A stretch of DNA of 64,000 bases from Thermoplasmata archaeon. GTDB lineage: Archaea; Thermoplasmatota; Thermoplasmata; Thermoplasmatales; GCA-001856825. The stretch's first letter is position 1. Each line of letters opens with the position of its first letter. The position numbers were made by a program, and so were the translations under genes. Positions 58,250 to 63,895 of this stretch are shown here, in pieces. The stretch lies in assembly GCA_021792255.1 (NCBI GenBank), contig JAJYUZ010000004.1:1-64000 (forward strand), written 5' to 3'. The notes beneath the pieces were generated by a model. The model saw only the letters and a list, made by a program, of their open reading frames with translations, was not told where the DNA came from and ran no database searches.

Positions 58250-59572
58250 TTGAATCTCGATGAACAGATTTATGAATACAGCACGGGCATTGATGCTCTT
58301 CTAAAGGATAGTTCTACCAGGGAAGAATTGAAGAAGCGAATCGTGGACTCACTTTTTGTATCTTACGGTGCTAGGGACTCAGAGGCTGTCAGGTTATCTA
58401 AGAGGGGACTCTTGCCATCATCTGGTAAGATGAACGCCCCGATCTACTTTGACAAGCGAACCGCTTCTGTCGACATAGCCACTTATCTAAATGGTTGCAT
58501 GACCAGGTATCTCGACTACAATGATACATATCTTTCAAAAGAAGCGCTTCATCCTTCAGATAATATACCTCCAATTTTGAGCTACGCGTACTCTTTGGGT
58601 GAAAGTGGTTTGCAAGTTCTCAGAGCTCTTGCTACGTCTTATCAAGTAGTGGGTGCATTTGCTGATGCATTTTCTATCAGGGACCGGGGGTGGGATCACG
58701 TGACATATATTTCCATCTCTTCAGCCGCGGGATTGGGAGTATTGAATGGTTTTGACAAGTCCAAGTTCATCAACACGCTAAATCTGGCTATAAACAACAA
58801 CATTTCACTTCGTCAGACAAGAGCCGGCGAGTTGAGCATGTGGAAAGGATGCACGGCAGCAAATGCAACGCGCAATTCCGTCTTTGCATCTCTTCTTGCT
58901 AACGAAGGATTTACTGGTCCATCACCAATATTTGAAGGGGAAATGGGGTTCTTCAAGCAGGTCACAGGTAACGTCAGTATCGATCTAAAAAATAACAGAA
59001 TCCTCAGGACGATGATCAAGAATTTTCCGGTTGAATATCACGCAATGAGTGCTGTTGAATCCGCTTTGTGGATAAAAGATCGGTTGAACGGGGAAATGAT
59101 AAATAGCGTAAAGGTCGACACATTTTCGGTAGCGCAAAAGATCATAGTGAAGGACCCAGAAAAGTTAAGACCAAAAACAAAGGAAACTGCGGACCACAGT
59201 TTACCATACATCATTGCCTACACACTCCTCTATGGTGAACCAGATTTAACTTCGTTCGATTCTAGATTCCTGAACGATCCATTGATCTTGAAACTGATAG
59301 ACAAGATGACTTTCAACGTGACAGAAGAATATGATGCTCTGTATCCAGAGTATCTGCCAGTAAAAATATCAGTAAGTACGAAAGCTGGTAGCTTGGATAA
59401 AGAAGTCAAGGTTCCGAAAGGTCATTTCAAGAATCCCTTCGACTGGAAAGACCTCGAGAACAAGGGATTCAAGGTAATGAAAAACAAAGAAAAGGTGAGG
59501 GAAATCATCGAAATTGGTCAGAAATTTGAAAATTCCTCGAGTAGGGACCTGTTTGATTTAGTCCATTCGTGA
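58250..59572 (+). CDS. MmgE/PrpD family protein
   Basis: A 440-residue protein of the MmgE/PrpD (2-methylcitrate dehydratase-like) family. ATYLNGCMTRYLDYNDTYLSKEALHPSDNIPPILSYAYS (about 80-118) is the signature region, and RAGELSMWKGCTAANATRN and PVEYHAMSAVESAL are further family segments. The family includes dehydratases acting on 2-methylcitrate and on other carboxylic acids; the substrate is unknown here. No methylcitrate synthase or lyase lies nearby. The TTG at 58250 has CAGGTGAT a few nt upstream. Confidence 0.9.
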   Translation: MNLDEQIYEYSTGIDALLKDSSTREELKKRIVDSLFVSYGARDSEAVRLSKRGLLPSSGKMNAPIYFDKRTASVDIATYLNGCMTRYLDYNDTYLSKEALHPSDNIPPILSYAYSLGESGLQVLRALATSYQVVGAFADAFSIRDRGWDHVTYISISSAAGLGVLNGFDKSKFINTLNLAINNNISLRQTRAGELSMWKGCTAANATRNSVFASLLANEGFTGPSPIFEGEMGFFKQVTGNVSIDLKNNRILRTMIKNFPVEYHAMSAVESALWIKDRLNGEMINSVKVDTFSVAQKIIVKDPEKLRPKTKETADHSLPYIIAYTLLYGEPDLTSFDSRFLNDPLILKLIDKMTFNVTEEYDALYPEYLPVKISVSTKAGSLDKEVKVPKGHFKNPFDWKDLENKGFKVMKNKEKVREIIEIGQKFENSSSRDLFDLVHS

Positions 59573-59604
59573 GTACCACAGTGTCATAGGAAAATTCGTG
59601 AATG

Positions 59605-59615
59605 AATTTAATAAC
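59605..59615 (+). promoter_or_regulatory. TATA-like box; decides the SCP2 gene start
   Basis: AATTTAATAAC is centred 25 nt before the ATG at 59635. An earlier in-frame ATG at 59602 lies upstream of this box, so a transcript from this promoter would lack it. Confidence 0.5.
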
Positions 59616-59634
59616 ATGTGAATCATATTATGCT

Positions 59635-60063
59635 ATGCCTGATGCTCTTTTGTTTCCCTCAGAAGAATGGGTAAAGGAATATTGCAAACGGCTCTGCGAA
59701 TCCCCGGACTACAATAAAACTGGGAAAGGTTGGAAAGACCCGATCAAGTTCAAAATGACGGAAATGGGCGATTTGAAGGGAGGAACCTCTTTTGATTCTT
59801 TCATCCTTAATCTTCACGACGGCAAGTGTGATGGATCTGAGATGGTAACTGACCCTGAAAAAACTTCACCGTTTGAGCTGACCGCGACGTACGCTAACTG
59901 GAAGAAAATTATAAGTGGAAAGATAAATCCCACTCAAGCGATGTTGACTGGACAGATGAAAGTGAAAGGGAATATCGCTCTGCTTTTGAGGTATGCATCT
60001 GCTGCAATAGCAATGGTCAAGACAGCTCAGACAATTCCAACTAAGTACCTCGGAGAAGAATGA
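59635..60063 (+). CDS. SCP2 sterol-carrier-like domain protein
   Basis: A 142-residue SCP2-fold protein with a hydrophobic ligand tunnel. The start LLFPSEEWVKEYCKRL, a central LHDGKCDG, FELTATYANWKKIISGKINPTQAMLTGQMKVKGN and a C-terminal amphipathic helix are characteristic. SCP2 proteins bind lipids or acyl-CoA esters. The ATG at 59635 fits both the family start and the promoter. It overlaps the alcohol dehydrogenase gene by 4 nt. Confidence 0.85.
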   Translation: MPDALLFPSEEWVKEYCKRLCESPDYNKTGKGWKDPIKFKMTEMGDLKGGTSFDSFILNLHDGKCDGSEMVTDPEKTSPFELTATYANWKKIISGKINPTQAMLTGQMKVKGNIALLLRYASAAIAMVKTAQTIPTKYLGEE

Positions 60064-61175
60064 GTCTATTTCAGTTTCCAAGAACTATATATTTTCAGCG
60101 CGACATTTTTGACAGTTTAGGGGACATATTACAGAAGGAAGGGATAAGAAGAGTACTTATTGTGAGTGATAAAATAATAATGGGATTTATTGGAAACAGG
60201 CTAGAAAAGACCCTAGCCCCAATCGAACGAGAACTTTTCGTCGATGTCACTCCTGAGCCGACGATAAGGCAGATTCAAAATGCCTTAACCGCTCTCAAAG
60301 GAAGACATTATGACGCAGTCCTTGCAATAGGAGGAGGAAGCGTCATTGACTTCTCCAAAGCCTTAGCCGTATTGATATCAAATCCAGGGGCCGATTTGAG
60401 TACTATAAGTCCATTCGAAGTCATTAATCTCAAGACTAAGCTAATCGCTATTCCGACAACTTCCGGAACAGGGAGCGATGTCTCATTCGGAGTTGTTCTG
60501 ACCGATGACGAAGGCAAACTGGCACTTGGCAACTACGCACTTGTTCCAGAAATAGACATCCTAGACTCCTCCCTAGCCCCTACAGACAAGAAGATTACGG
60601 CTGCGACCGGAATAGATGCATTTGTCCATTCCTTTGAAGCTATTGCATCAAATACGTCTACGGTGTTTACGGACGCACTTGCAGAGAGGGCAATCGAAAC
60701 GATTTTTCATAACCTAAAGAGAGCAATGGAAAACGAGGAAAATGCAAAGGATTTAATGCATATTTCTGCAACAATGGCCGGAATGGCTTTTTCAAATAGT
60801 GGGACAGCATCGGCCCATGCTCTAGGTCACAGTTTTGGAGCCACATTCCACATAACTCATGGAACTTCAGTTGGTCTGTTCCTTATTCCTTCCATACTTT
60901 TCAATTCACAGAATCAGGAGGCGAAGGAGAAATATTTGAGAGTATGCAGGATCCTAAATGTTAACGACATCGAAGGGCTTATCGAAGAGATAACGAAATT
61001 CTTTAAAGATGTGGGTCAGCCGTGTCGAGTAAGAGATCTAGGAATCGACAGACAGGTCTATGCATCAAAAATTGAGCAGCTCATCTCTCTTTCCATGAGG
61101 GACAGCGAGCTTGCGTTCAATCCAGTTCTAGCAGGAGAAGATGATCTCAGAAAGATTTTTACAGAAACCTACTGA
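60060..61175 (+). CDS. Iron-containing alcohol dehydrogenase
   Basis: A 371-residue group III alcohol dehydrogenase. GGGSVIDFSKA (about 95-105) binds the cofactor, TTSGTGSDVSF follows, and the metal ligands are supplied by GIDAFVHSFEA and SAHALGHSFGATFHITHG. The substrate is unknown; relatives act on alcohols, on lactaldehyde or as hydroxyacid-oxoacid transhydrogenases. It is translationally coupled to the SCP2-like gene by a 4-nt overlap, suggesting it acts on a substrate carried by that protein. Confidence 0.92.
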   Translation: MSLFQFPRTIYFQRDIFDSLGDILQKEGIRRVLIVSDKIIMGFIGNRLEKTLAPIERELFVDVTPEPTIRQIQNALTALKGRHYDAVLAIGGGSVIDFSKALAVLISNPGADLSTISPFEVINLKTKLIAIPTTSGTGSDVSFGVVLTDDEGKLALGNYALVPEIDILDSSLAPTDKKITAATGIDAFVHSFEAIASNTSTVFTDALAERAIETIFHNLKRAMENEENAKDLMHISATMAGMAFSNSGTASAHALGHSFGATFHITHGTSVGLFLIPSILFNSQNQEAKEKYLRVCRILNVNDIEGLIEEITKFFKDVGQPCRVRDLGIDRQVYASKIEQLISLSMRDSELAFNPVLAGEDDLRKIFTETY

Positions 61176-61179
61176 GTAT

Positions 61180-62055
61180 TTATGATACTATGAAATTGAC
61201 TCCCTTCTGCATCACATTAACCGTTATAGGCGACGTTCCCACCACTTCTCCATCCATTTCAACTAGGTTTCCCTTTTCAGTAAAACGGATCGATTTTACT
61301 TTACTTTCGAATGAAAAATTCTTCTCTATGTAACTTCCGTTCATCAGGTTCCTTAAGCGGAGTATAGTCGTAAGTCTGGACACTGGTTTCAGAATGTGAA
61401 CATCAAGAATTCCATCACTCAAGATGGAGTGAGGTGATGCCAGCATCCCGCCTCCGAAGTACTTTCCATTAGCAACGATAACTTCTATCGTCTCCAAGTC
61501 TTTCTGATCCCCATTTTCTATTCCGGGCTTGAATCTCTTAAGTTTTCGGACGGTGGAAAGAATTCCACGAACAAATGTATACCGACCTCCCTTGGGGTGC
61601 GAATTGACGTATCTCATCACTTCTGCTCCGAATCCTATCTCCAGAACGTTTATGAAGACTCTACTCTTGCCAGTCTCTTCAAAGGTGACGTTCGGTACAT
61701 CAATTCTTTCAACCTTATTTGCTTTCAACGTGCTTATCGACTCTTCCACGCTCCTGACTCCAATCGACTTTCCAAAATCAGAACCTGTTCCAAGAGGTAT
61801 CAATCCAACCTTGATCTCGGAACCTGCCAAACCATTGATCACCTCGTTTAGTGTCCCGTCTCCTCCGCAAGAAACTATGGCATCGTATCCCTTAAGGACG
61901 GCATTCCTCGCTATCTCAGTCGCTTGCAACGATCTCTGGGTAAATTCGACATCATATTCTGAGAAATTTTCTTGTATCAATTTTGCTATTGCTGGCCACT
62001 CCTTTTCTGCCTTCCCCTTCCCAGCGGCGGGGTTGACTATGAATAAAATGCTCAC
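61180..62055 (-). CDS. Diacylglycerol-kinase-type lipid kinase
   Basis: A 291-residue YegS/DAG-kinase catalytic-domain protein. VNPAAGKGKAEKEW is at 8-21, the nucleotide-binding GGDGTLNE at 64-71, and PLGTGSDFGKSIGV follows. C-terminal MLASPHSILSDGILDVHILK fits the beta-sandwich domain. It phosphorylates a lipid hydroxyl; the acceptor is unknown. The GTG at 62055 has an ATTTAATTT-like TATA sequence 26 nt upstream (complement). It is downstream of the FAD enzyme on the same strand, separated by 44 nt. Confidence 0.9.
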   Translation of the reverse strand: MSILFIVNPAAGKGKAEKEWPAIAKLIQENFSEYDVEFTQRSLQATEIARNAVLKGYDAIVSCGGDGTLNEVINGLAGSEIKVGLIPLGTGSDFGKSIGVRSVEESISTLKANKVERIDVPNVTFEETGKSRVFINVLEIGFGAEVMRYVNSHPKGGRYTFVRGILSTVRKLKRFKPGIENGDQKDLETIEVIVANGKYFGGGMLASPHSILSDGILDVHILKPVSRLTTILRLRNLMNGSYIEKNFSFESKVKSIRFTEKGNLVEMDGEVVGTSPITVNVMQKGVNFIVS

Positions 62056-62099
62056 AGACTTAAAATATCCCTGAAATTAAATGTTATCCGATGGTCTTG

Positions 62100-63668
62100 T
62101 CACTTTTTGTCAAGGATTCCAGGAACGAGCGAATTCTTTGGATCGAAATATGACTTGACCGTTCTAGTCAGGTCATACATAGTACCCTTGTATTCCTGAA
62201 GGTACTTGGACTGCAAATTTCCAATGCCGTGATGGTGCGAGATAGACCCACCCTTCGCCAATATGTTTTCCATTATTCCATCTCGGACTTGATTCAGAAT
62301 AGCTTCCCTGTTGTCTTGTGAATAGAAGAGAAACGTGAAGTAGAGAGCGGATCCAGTAACGTACTGATGAGAAGAATGACACAAGATCATTCCCTTTATC
62401 CCCAGTGTCTCTATGATTTCACTAAATCTCTTCCTGGTAGAGTTGTGGATTTCATCCAGTCTACCCCATTCTGCAGATGTCTCGATGGTCTCTGCCACTA
62501 TTCCTCTCTTAAGCAATTCGTTGTACATCAGGGGTCGTGAATACCTCTCCTTGTTCCAGTATTTCGCTGGGAGAGATCCAAGACTAATGCTGCTTTCAAA
62601 CTTGATCTCTTCCTTCCGGTCGCTGACAGCTATAAGTATTGCCCCTCGCTGATCGTGCATTCTGAGGGCCACGTACTTCTTGAATGCATTGTTGAGGAAT
62701 GTGTCTTCAATCCCAATCATCGAAAGTTCAGTTTCATCCTCATCCGACAATCTGGTTATGATCGGCACTTCTCCTTCTGTAAATTTCTTTCTTAGCGCTT
62801 CCAGTCCATCGCTAAACGACTCAAACATTTGTGCCCTGTAAAAGAGCTGTTTTGGCTTCTTCTGAACCTTCACCCAAGCTCTTGTGACAATGCCGAAGCT
62901 GCCTTCGCTACCAACAGCTAAATCAAATAACTTGAAGAAAGCTGATTCGCCAGGGACTATCCTGTCCTGGTAGGTTCCGGTTGGAGCTTCCATCCTCACA
63001 CCCAGCACCATCTCTTTCACTTTTCCATATCTGTTTGATTCCTGTCCAGCTGCATTGGTTCCAATCCAGCCGCCGAGTGTAGAAAAATGAAAAGATTCAG
63101 GAAAATTTCCGAGAGTCAGTCCGTACTTTTCAAGCTCTTCTTCGATCTTTGGACCTTTCACTCCACCTCCGGCCTCTAGAACATTGTTGTTTCGGTCGAT
63201 CATTAAATAGTCTAGTTTGGACAAGTCAAGACTCACAGAGAATTTTTTTCTGCCCGTTGGGGTGATACCTCCGGTCACTGAAGTGCCTCCTCCAAAGGGA
63301 ATGATCTCTATTTGGTCGTCTGCCTTCCTAAGTAAACATTTTATCTCCTCCTCTACAGGATAGACGACAGCGTCCACGGTCTTGATTGGTTGCACTTCCA
63401 TCAACCTGATATAATCTAGACCTCCTCTCCCAACTGAATGTTTTAGTCTGTCCATTTCGTCAAATTTCACGTTATCTGGTGAAACGCAGGAGTACAAAAT
63501 TTCCTTGAGTTCTGATGAAACAGGAAGGGGATCAATGTTCCTATATCCAGACCAGATGATCTTATCCTCACCTAGACCAACCTTTCGTCTGATATAGGTC
63601 AAAAGGGGCTTACTCATATCGTATTCTTTTTCACTATCTCCCCACAGGGTATACAACTGGCTGCCCAT
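62100..63668 (-). CDS. FAD-linked oxidase resembling alkyl-DHAP synthase
   Basis: A 522-residue vanillyl-alcohol-oxidase-fold flavoprotein. The FAD-binding loop IPFGGGTSVTGG is at 123-134, FSTLGGWIGTNAAGQES follows, and the C-terminal cap has ETSAEWGRL and GGSISHHHGIGN, where the histidine triplet and the preceding ETSA-W match the alkyl-dihydroxyacetonephosphate synthase group better than D-lactate dehydrogenases. Whether it makes an ether lipid or oxidises a 2-hydroxy acid is not settled. GAAATATAAGC (complement of 63687-63697) is centred 24 nt upstream. Confidence 0.85.
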   Translation of the reverse strand: MGSQLYTLWGDSEKEYDMSKPLLTYIRRKVGLGEDKIIWSGYRNIDPLPVSSELKEILYSCVSPDNVKFDEMDRLKHSVGRGGLDYIRLMEVQPIKTVDAVVYPVEEEIKCLLRKADDQIEIIPFGGGTSVTGGITPTGRKKFSVSLDLSKLDYLMIDRNNNVLEAGGGVKGPKIEEELEKYGLTLGNFPESFHFSTLGGWIGTNAAGQESNRYGKVKEMVLGVRMEAPTGTYQDRIVPGESAFFKLFDLAVGSEGSFGIVTRAWVKVQKKPKQLFYRAQMFESFSDGLEALRKKFTEGEVPIITRLSDEDETELSMIGIEDTFLNNAFKKYVALRMHDQRGAILIAVSDRKEEIKFESSISLGSLPAKYWNKERYSRPLMYNELLKRGIVAETIETSAEWGRLDEIHNSTRKRFSEIIETLGIKGMILCHSSHQYVTGSALYFTFLFYSQDNREAILNQVRDGIMENILAKGGSISHHHGIGNLQSKYLQEYKGTMYDLTRTVKSYFDPKNSLVPGILDKK

Positions 63669-63805: not shown

Positions 63806-63895
63806 ATGCCATGTAAGTGCAAGACGTGCGGAGAAATGTTTCCGAGTGCTAAGCAGAGAGATGCTCACGCGGCTAAGTCCCATGCCAAAAAGTAA
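63806..63895 (+). CDS. 29-residue C2H2 zinc-finger protein
   Basis: A very small gene: ATG at 63806 and TAA at 63893-63895. The product contains one complete C2H2 finger: C5-x2-C8-x12-H21-x4-H26 within CKCKTCGEMF and KQRDAHAAKSHAKK, with a third nearby cysteine at position 3. GTAAATATCT (63771-63780) lies about 30 nt upstream as a TATA-like box. Tiny single-finger proteins are known in archaea. It is divergent from the FAD-oxidase gene. Confidence 0.7.
   Translation: MPCKCKTCGEMFPSAKQRDAHAAKSHAKK

Follow-up and report, generated by a model that had tools for sequence, protein, structure and literature searches.

A Thermoplasmata archaeon genome (1.59 Mb, 93.6% complete) carries, near the end of the first 64 kb of its contig 11 (the whole stretch analysed, hereafter the window), a cluster of genes arranged around a flavin adenine dinucleotide (FAD) enzyme. 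Together with a lipid kinase, an SCP2 protein and an iron-type alcohol dehydrogenase (Fe-ADH), this enzyme makes up a genuine module that recurs in Thermoplasmatales, in many cases joined by a GlpD-type dehydrogenase. By sequence, tree, motif and predicted fold the FAD enzyme belongs to the superfamily of alkyl-dihydroxyacetone-phosphate (alkyl-DHAP) synthase, known as AGPS in mammals and ADPS in Dictyostelium. Gene context points, with moderate confidence, to ether-lipid breakdown, in which the AGPS-like flavoenzyme would run in reverse. Going past the initial annotation of the window, the results point to a second branch of the AGPS superfamily, probably catabolic, whose partner genes are conserved in archaea as well as bacteria, its direction and substrate being drawn from context.

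The FAD enzyme (62100-63668, minus strand, 522 aa, PF01565/PF02913, i.e. FAD_binding_4/FAD-oxidase_C), for which ether cleavage on alkyl-DHAP is proposed, displays SHHHG from residue 477 and ETSAEW from residue 396. Following it on the same strand after 44 bases is a YegS/BmrU-type lipid (diacylglycerol) kinase (61180-62055, GTG start, 291 aa, PF00781/PF19279), a candidate alkylglycerol kinase with a GGDGT motif from residue 64 and a TIGR00147 score of 137.1 bits, above the cut-off of 118.65 for the YegS/Rv2252/BmrU family. Convergent with the kinase gene, with 4 bases between, is that of Fe-ADH (60060-61175, plus strand, 371 aa, PF00465/PF25137), which may oxidise the released alcohol. Its reading frame shares 4 bases with that of a single-domain SCP2 protein (59602-60063, plus strand, 153 aa, PF02036), a putative lipid or alcohol carrier whose single-sequence structure model (pLDDT 41.5) is too low for use. 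An MmgE/PrpD family gene precedes these four. The initial annotation had given all five genes with positions, strands and families, the SCP2/Fe-ADH overlap and the HHH triplet and ETSA-W residues of the FAD enzyme, and it is borne out by the open frames, start and stop codons and Pfam, in which every match for the five proteins is above cut-off.

Family and active site of the FAD enzyme

Among PDB sequences the FAD enzyme matches Dictyostelium ADPS (E 9.7e-69) and guinea pig AGPS (3.3e-51) ahead of the best non-AGPS entry, a putative oxidoreductase (4.6e-20), and of the best lactate dehydrogenase (1.1e-15). The source genome's own GlcD-type protein shows the opposite pattern (LctD 7.8e-74, ADPS 4.5e-24). 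In a tree of 107 rows (101 AGPS-like and six GlcD/LDH; quick method, SH-aLRT support only) the six GlcD/LDH rows split off at support 100, and 20 Thermoplasmatales-type rows (19 belonging to the order and one to its class) cluster together, likewise at 100. The structure predicted from a 48-row alignment has a pLDDT of 93.9. With this model as Foldseek query, AGPS and ADPS fill the first 37 of 50 rows among the matches listed (best 7.8e-41), and LDHD appears from 2.7e-27. In the VIA fold comparison mammalian AGPS (5ae3) reaches Z 41.5 over 488 residues (model range 6-520), Dictyostelium ADPS 35.8-36.1 (2uuu 36.1, model range 5-519) and LDHD 35.6 over 427 residues (model range 50-520); the model thus displays the AGPS fold including its N-terminal part.

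The guinea pig AGPS mutants R419H and Y578F (PDB 4bc7 and 4bca) mark sites that align with R306 and Y443 of the window enzyme, both of which are kept in all 101 AGPS-like rows. The HHH triplet, H478-480, is kept in these rows as well, with two exceptions: among the 20 Thermoplasmatales-type rows L050 carries Asp for the first His, and 11 rows (8 Chloroflexota, 3 Acidobacteriota) carry Gln for the second. Residues R352, Y508 and R447 of Dictyostelium ADPS are named as catalytically important (PMC3509576; this and the other papers are cited from excerpts), and they correspond to R306, Y443 and Y382 by residue counting in the alignment, an offset of three being applied.

The alternative raised in the initial annotation, a D-2-hydroxyacid (lactate or glycolate) dehydrogenase, is very improbable. 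The FAD_binding_4 and FAD-oxidase_C domains are common to both families, a weak TIGR00387 score is obtained (116.3 bits, cut-off 567.9) and the LDHD fold is close, yet the sequence matches are much weaker, the tree separates the two, and at positions 434 and 479 the window enzyme carries His instead of the Asp and Glu, respectively, of the six GlcD/LDH rows, and at 443 Tyr instead of their His. On sequence, tree, active-site residues, Foldseek and VIA together this candidate is rejected. The alkyl-DHAP-synthase-like assignment of the same annotation stands; grouping with D-lactate dehydrogenases beside unconserved neighbours, which it took as grounds for refutation, is contradicted by the separation in the tree and by the conservation of most neighbours.

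A module conserved across Thermoplasmatales

Forty loci of the order were fetched, their proteins were grouped by BLAST and family names were taken from representatives; gene counts per locus are lower bounds because some loci stop at contig ends. The FAD enzyme is present in all 40 loci, the kinase in 36, SCP2 in 27, the GlpD-type dehydrogenase in 25 and Fe-ADH in 23. Less frequent are a 2-hydroxyacid dehydrogenase (13), a thiamine diphosphate (ThDP) enzyme (12), a PF04185-type phosphoesterase (11), aldehyde dehydrogenase (ALDH, 10) and aldehyde ferredoxin oxidoreductase (AOR, 4). At least three of kinase, SCP2, GlpD, Fe-ADH and ALDH are found in 28 of the 40 loci, and all five in six. Given this recurrence in related genomes, chance is excluded as the reason why four of the window's five genes lie together.

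In a survey of 117 genomes of the order (FAD enzyme at E <= 1e-30, kinase at E <= 1e-15) the FAD enzyme was found in 57 and the kinase in 59. Both occur in 56 genomes, the FAD enzyme alone in one, the kinase alone in three and neither in 57 (Fisher 1.7e-28, phylogeny ignored). The pair lies less than 5 kb apart in 51 of the 56 genomes with both, and on different contigs in the other five. SCP2-domain genes are near-universal (110 of the 117 genomes), so only the clustered SCP2 copy is informative. Acyl-CoA dehydrogenase is encoded in 97 of the genomes, including every one with the FAD enzyme.

The GlpD-type dehydrogenase, encoded outside the window, belongs to the module in many relatives. Its gene occurs in 70 of the 117 genomes, 53 of which are among the 57 with the FAD enzyme, and in 40 of these 53 the two genes are less than 5 kb apart. 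The protein gives a full-length match to solved GlpD/GlpO (3da1, 2.8e-110) and conserves the HGGLRY motif and invariant R and K columns, which presumably serve in binding glycerol-3-phosphate (G3P). Against the NCBIfam GlpD equivalog its best score is 250.9 bits, below the cut-off of 360.

Irregular forms of the FAD and kinase genes were seen in two records. In genome G097 a kinase match with an in-frame stop (C1:1505824-1506471) occurs and no FAD enzyme was found in this one-contig genome, a possible joint decay of the pair. In a Ferroplasmaceae record (L152, 9866-11420) the FAD gene lies in two overlapping frames, owing to a frameshift or a sequencing error.

Three further features adjoin the cluster. 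The MmgE/PrpD family protein (58250-59572, plus strand, TTG start, 440 aa, PF03972/PF19305) had been included in the initial annotation as part of a five-gene cluster whose co-occurrence was to be checked; kinase, SCP2 and Fe-ADH do recur near the FAD gene, but MmgE/PrpD was found in none of the 39 other fetched loci, some of which are short, and the listed relatives carry it at a different site. Such genes are found in 89 of the 117 genomes, irrespective of whether the FAD enzyme is present, and their position about 9 kb from the kinase in two genomes that have the kinase and no FAD enzyme (G059, G060) is taken as chance. MmgE/PrpD is thus regarded as a chance neighbour outside the module. 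Just beyond the window, at contig 11 64041-66517 (L201 42-2518), a 2-hydroxyacid dehydrogenase and a benzoylformate-decarboxylase-like ThDP enzyme adjoin the FAD gene, a pair that could remove one carbon from a 2-hydroxy acid. Within the window, a 29-residue frame at 63806-63895 (plus strand), which begins MPCKCKTCGEMF and ends HAAKSHAKK, can be read as one C2H2 zinc finger.

Two gene contexts in the AGPS superfamily

A public-genome scan with the single window protein as query found no relative, and one with the archaeal alignment as query did find them. The best 80 of at least 584 loci, mostly bacterial, were kept from the latter, which confines the bacterial sample to those closest to the archaeal sequences. 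Among 391 genomes sampled by phylum, 46 had an AGPS-like enzyme (E <= 1e-50), and seven of these from outside the order (L210-L216) were fetched. In the tree eukaryotic AGPS groups with 40 bacterial loci at support 97 (the AGPS group). A second group, at support 95, includes Chloroflexota, several Acidobacteriota and Actinomycetota and some Thermoplasmatota; L085, L100 and L114 are unplaced. The 30 other loci set against the AGPS group, all from outside Thermoplasmatales, comprise 27 of the second group and these three.

The AGPS group and the others differ in their neighbours. A PlsC-type acyltransferase is nearby in 31 of the 40 AGPS-group loci (12 of the 31 trained the profile), in none of the 30 others and in none of the archaeal loci searched. 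GlpD, by contrast, is nearby in one AGPS-group locus (8.7 kb off) and in 22 of the 30 others (19 of 27 and 3 of 3), and a lipid kinase above 90 bits is found in none of the 40 and in 8 of the 30, with weak kinase matches in three AGPS-group loci. By Pfam, 114 neighbour frames from 22 AGPS-group loci include 13 acyltransferases, 7 HMG-CoA-reductase family proteins, 7 short-chain dehydrogenases and 4 NAD_binding_4 (fatty-acyl-CoA-reductase-like) proteins. The 108 frames from 23 other loci, GlpD frames having been left out beforehand, include MFS (5), response regulators (5), aldehyde dehydrogenase (4), FadR_C (4) and kinase (4), with no acyltransferase among the 25 of 99 families listed.

The gene neighbourhood of the AGPS group suggests a synthesis operon, covering acyl-DHAP, alcohol, ether bond and reduction. 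Rat AGPS and its acyltransferase have both been given actinomycete ancestry (PMC1472686), which is in keeping with such an operon as their source. An HMG-CoA-reductase-like gene, a PlsC-type acyltransferase and AGPS occur together in seven bacterial loci (L104 3316-7872, L139 8156-12486, L086, L089, L095, L107 and L131), five of them with a short-chain dehydrogenase, as a candidate ether-lipid synthesis operon. The HMG-CoA-reductase-like neighbour may be FcrA, a described fatty acyl-CoA reductase (PMC11948995).

Outside the AGPS group the partners recur in several arrangements. In a proteobacterial record (L102, 2100-5414) one frame of 1,104 residues joins an AGPS-like domain (50-543) to a GlpD domain (565-1079), a fusion that argues for successive steps. 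Nine of ten Chloroflexota loci have GlpD nearby, three of these also a FadR-type regulator, which in the three checked adjoins the FAD gene. The order GlpD, TetR, FAD enzyme, lipid kinase is found on a Tsukamurella and a Streptomyces plasmid, both of the second group and outside the counts of 40 and 30, and an archaeal locus (L105) has ALDH, FAD enzyme, GlpD and kinase. A different partner set is seen in L214-L216, from three other Thermoplasmatota, where the FAD gene is accompanied by an FGGY kinase (identified as GlpK in L214, the only one examined) and a GlpO/GlpA-like protein; at L214 9196-16673 the AGPS-like gene is followed by a CCG iron-sulfur protein, the GlpO/GlpA-like enzyme, a pyridine nucleotide oxidoreductase and GlpK, and the layouts of L215 and L216 are similar.

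Other members of the superfamily were noted in passing. Plasmids of the dioxane degraders Mycobacterium dioxanotrophicus and Xanthobacter dioxanivorans, of Moraxella and of Rhodococcus (L183, L184, L187, L227) carry AGPS-like flavoproteins in the vicinity of AMP-forming or acyl-CoA ligases; in the tree the first three group by themselves, and their gene neighbours are different ones. In L121, labelled as a Bifidobacterium breve metagenome-assembled genome, the FAD gene forms a pair with one from Solirubrobacterales (support 99), which may reflect a mislabelled or contaminated bin.

Direction of the reaction and related systems

Superfamily membership, two of the three catalytic residues, co-occurrence and clustering, the negative PF01553 search in the order and the two contexts, all computed, are the ground from which a direction, substrates and an order of steps may be proposed. 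The YegS-type kinase, which in some genomes a phospholipase-C-type phosphoesterase may supply with alkylglycerol, would phosphorylate 1-O-alkylglycerol to alkylglycerol phosphate, and the GlpD-type dehydrogenase would oxidise the C2 hydroxyl to give alkyl-DHAP. From this the AGPS-like enzyme would form a flavin N5-DHAP iminium adduct, expelling the alcohol, and DHAP would then be released via water, or acyl-DHAP via a fatty acid. Fe-ADH with ALDH or AOR would take the alcohol to aldehyde and acid for beta-oxidation, where the acyl-CoA dehydrogenases would come in, SCP2 serving as lipid carrier. Alkylglycerol kinase is a known activity (EC 2.7.1.93; PMC7911779), and in ADPS the N5-DHAP iminium is reached from acyl-DHAP and resolved by alcohol (PMC3509576); by analogy it could in principle be entered from alkyl-DHAP. 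No statement on AGPS reversibility was found in the open-licence PMC literature searched.

Breakdown is favoured over synthesis. Synthesis from DHAP needs neither kinase nor G3P oxidase and alkylglycerol breakdown needs both, and the archaeal loci have the second kind of context, with kinase and GlpD and without acyltransferase. A PF01553 acyltransferase was found in none of the 117 genomes (some incomplete; control 10 of 14; other acyltransferase families were not searched), nor was one found in the genome that holds archaeal locus L105. Bacterial genomes with the second kind of context carry PF01553 acyltransferases away from the locus, as expected for ester lipids. GlpD acts on sn-glycerol-3-phosphate, but archaeal lipids have an sn-glycerol-1-phosphate backbone. 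Alkylglycerols of bacterial or eukaryotic origin are therefore no less likely to be the substrate than the lipids of the archaea themselves. The initial annotation had left it between making and breaking an unusual ether lipid; an ether lipid fits, and the context tips towards breaking.

Several findings weigh against ether-lipid breakdown. The third catalytic Arg (ADPS R447) is replaced by Y382, and position 382 in the 20 Thermoplasmatales-type rows is Y in 9, A in 6 and G in 5, never Arg, so that the chemistry may be altered. Arg at 378 is however present in all 20, at the start of a helix (378-387 in the model) that also holds 382, whereas of the 81 remaining AGPS-like rows 75 carry Arg at 382 and none at 378; R378 may thus be a relocated catalytic arginine. 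The placement of the archaeal clade outside both bacterial clades has support of 86-87 only, and Dictyostelium ADPS is tied with LDHD in the VIA score, so the fold lead depends on mammalian AGPS and Foldseek. Fisher values ignore phylogeny, the kinase is unaccompanied by the FAD enzyme in three genomes, and the Fe-ADH and SCP2 families are versatile. The GlpD-type gene of the window's own genome is on contig 6, away from the cluster; none was found in four genomes with the FAD enzyme, and 17 genomes have it without the FAD enzyme, where it may serve plain glycerol phosphate. Of the 30 other loci, 8 lack GlpD and 22 lack the kinase in the stretch examined. No lipid kinase was found in the stretches of L214-L216, a variant that the proposed scheme does not explain.

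Three other explanations keep the enzyme within its superfamily. A biosynthetic alkyl-DHAP synthase in a cluster making an unusual archaeal ether lipid would account for the retained HHH, Arg419 and Tyr578 equivalents, and Fe-ADH could act as an aldehyde reductase supplying the alcohol; it is unlikely given that no PF01553 acyltransferase to provide acyl-DHAP was found in the 117 genomes (other acyltransferase families were not searched), that eukaryotic AGPS sits in another clade, the one with that acyltransferase, and that kinase and G3P oxidase would be superfluous when starting from DHAP. A low probability of the same order is given to ester glycerolipid breakdown, running from monoacylglycerol through lysophosphatidic acid and acyl-DHAP to fatty acid and DHAP. 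YegS-type kinases act on acylglycerols, as this would require, but lipases cleave esters without cofactors, and the alcohol and aldehyde dehydrogenases of the archaeal clusters would be left without a role. The FadR-type regulators of Chloroflexota are also in its favour, as is the first half-reaction of AGPS, which frees fatty acid from acyl-DHAP (PMC3509576). Somewhat less probable again is a glycerol-phosphate- or DHAP-linked flavoenzyme of other chemistry, such as an N5-adduct transferase with another leaving group. The alternation of partners between lipid kinase with GlpD and FGGY kinase with GlpO-like enzyme, the GlpD fusion and the replaced third Arg would suit it, whereas a lipid-handling SCP2 and a YegS kinase as partners within the order would not.

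Extending ether-lipid breakdown to a glycerol-ether route that is oxygen-free at the cleaving step and common to Thermoplasmatales, Chloroflexota, Acidobacteriota and Actinomycetota including mycobacteria, with an ancient sister group of AGPS run in reverse and archaeal isoprenoid ether lipids recycled or scavenged, is tentative and rather doubtful. In open-licence PMC no paper on the module or on AGPS-type enzymes in Thermoplasmatales was recognised, which does not prove that none exists. If the breakdown reading is right, homology to AGPS cannot by itself be taken as a sign of ether-lipid synthesis. Agps homologues in many phyla, including Chloroflexota, have been read as alkenyl-ether-making potential (PMC11868695, in the excerpt), and the Chloroflexota loci with GlpD and FadR-type regulators call for caution on that reading.

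Compared with AGPS/ADPS (EC 2.5.1.26; Dictyostelium 2uuu, guinea pig 4bby), the window enzyme shares the fold over residues 5-520, the HHH triplet and the catalytic Arg and Tyr. It differs in clade, in having Y, A or G for the third Arg with an Arg four positions earlier, and in its archaeal partners, kinase and GlpD in place of the acyltransferase of the AGPS group. Glycerol catabolism by GlpK and GlpD/GlpA is similar in that a kinase is followed by oxidation of glycerol phosphate to DHAP, with GlpD-type motifs conserved, but the module has a lipid kinase in GlpK's place and the AGPS-like enzyme in addition. GlpK and GlpA in Thermoplasmatales are treated in PMC11962113, whose excerpt makes no mention of ether lipid or diacylglycerol.

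Microbial cleavage of glyceryl ether bonds is poorly known, and the breakdown route, if true, would provide a testable enzyme set in archaea and bacteria. Rv2251 of M. tuberculosis is presumably a homologue of the FAD enzyme. It stands in the row Rv2249c (glpD1), Rv2250c, Rv2251 (flavoprotein) and Rv2252 (diacylglycerol kinase) (PMC4564863), which, compared by gene names and order in that excerpt, shares the three-enzyme set, with a TetR-type regulator between and no SCP2 or Fe-ADH named alongside; the Tsukamurella and Streptomyces plasmids have this arrangement too. A likely function for Rv2249c-Rv2252 would follow. Alkylglycerol monooxygenase (AGMO), according to the excerpt of PMC7911779 the sole known alkylglycerol-cleaving enzyme, serves the same end of glyceryl ether cleavage, but as a monooxygenase, whereas the proposed route would be oxygen-free at the ether-cleaving step.

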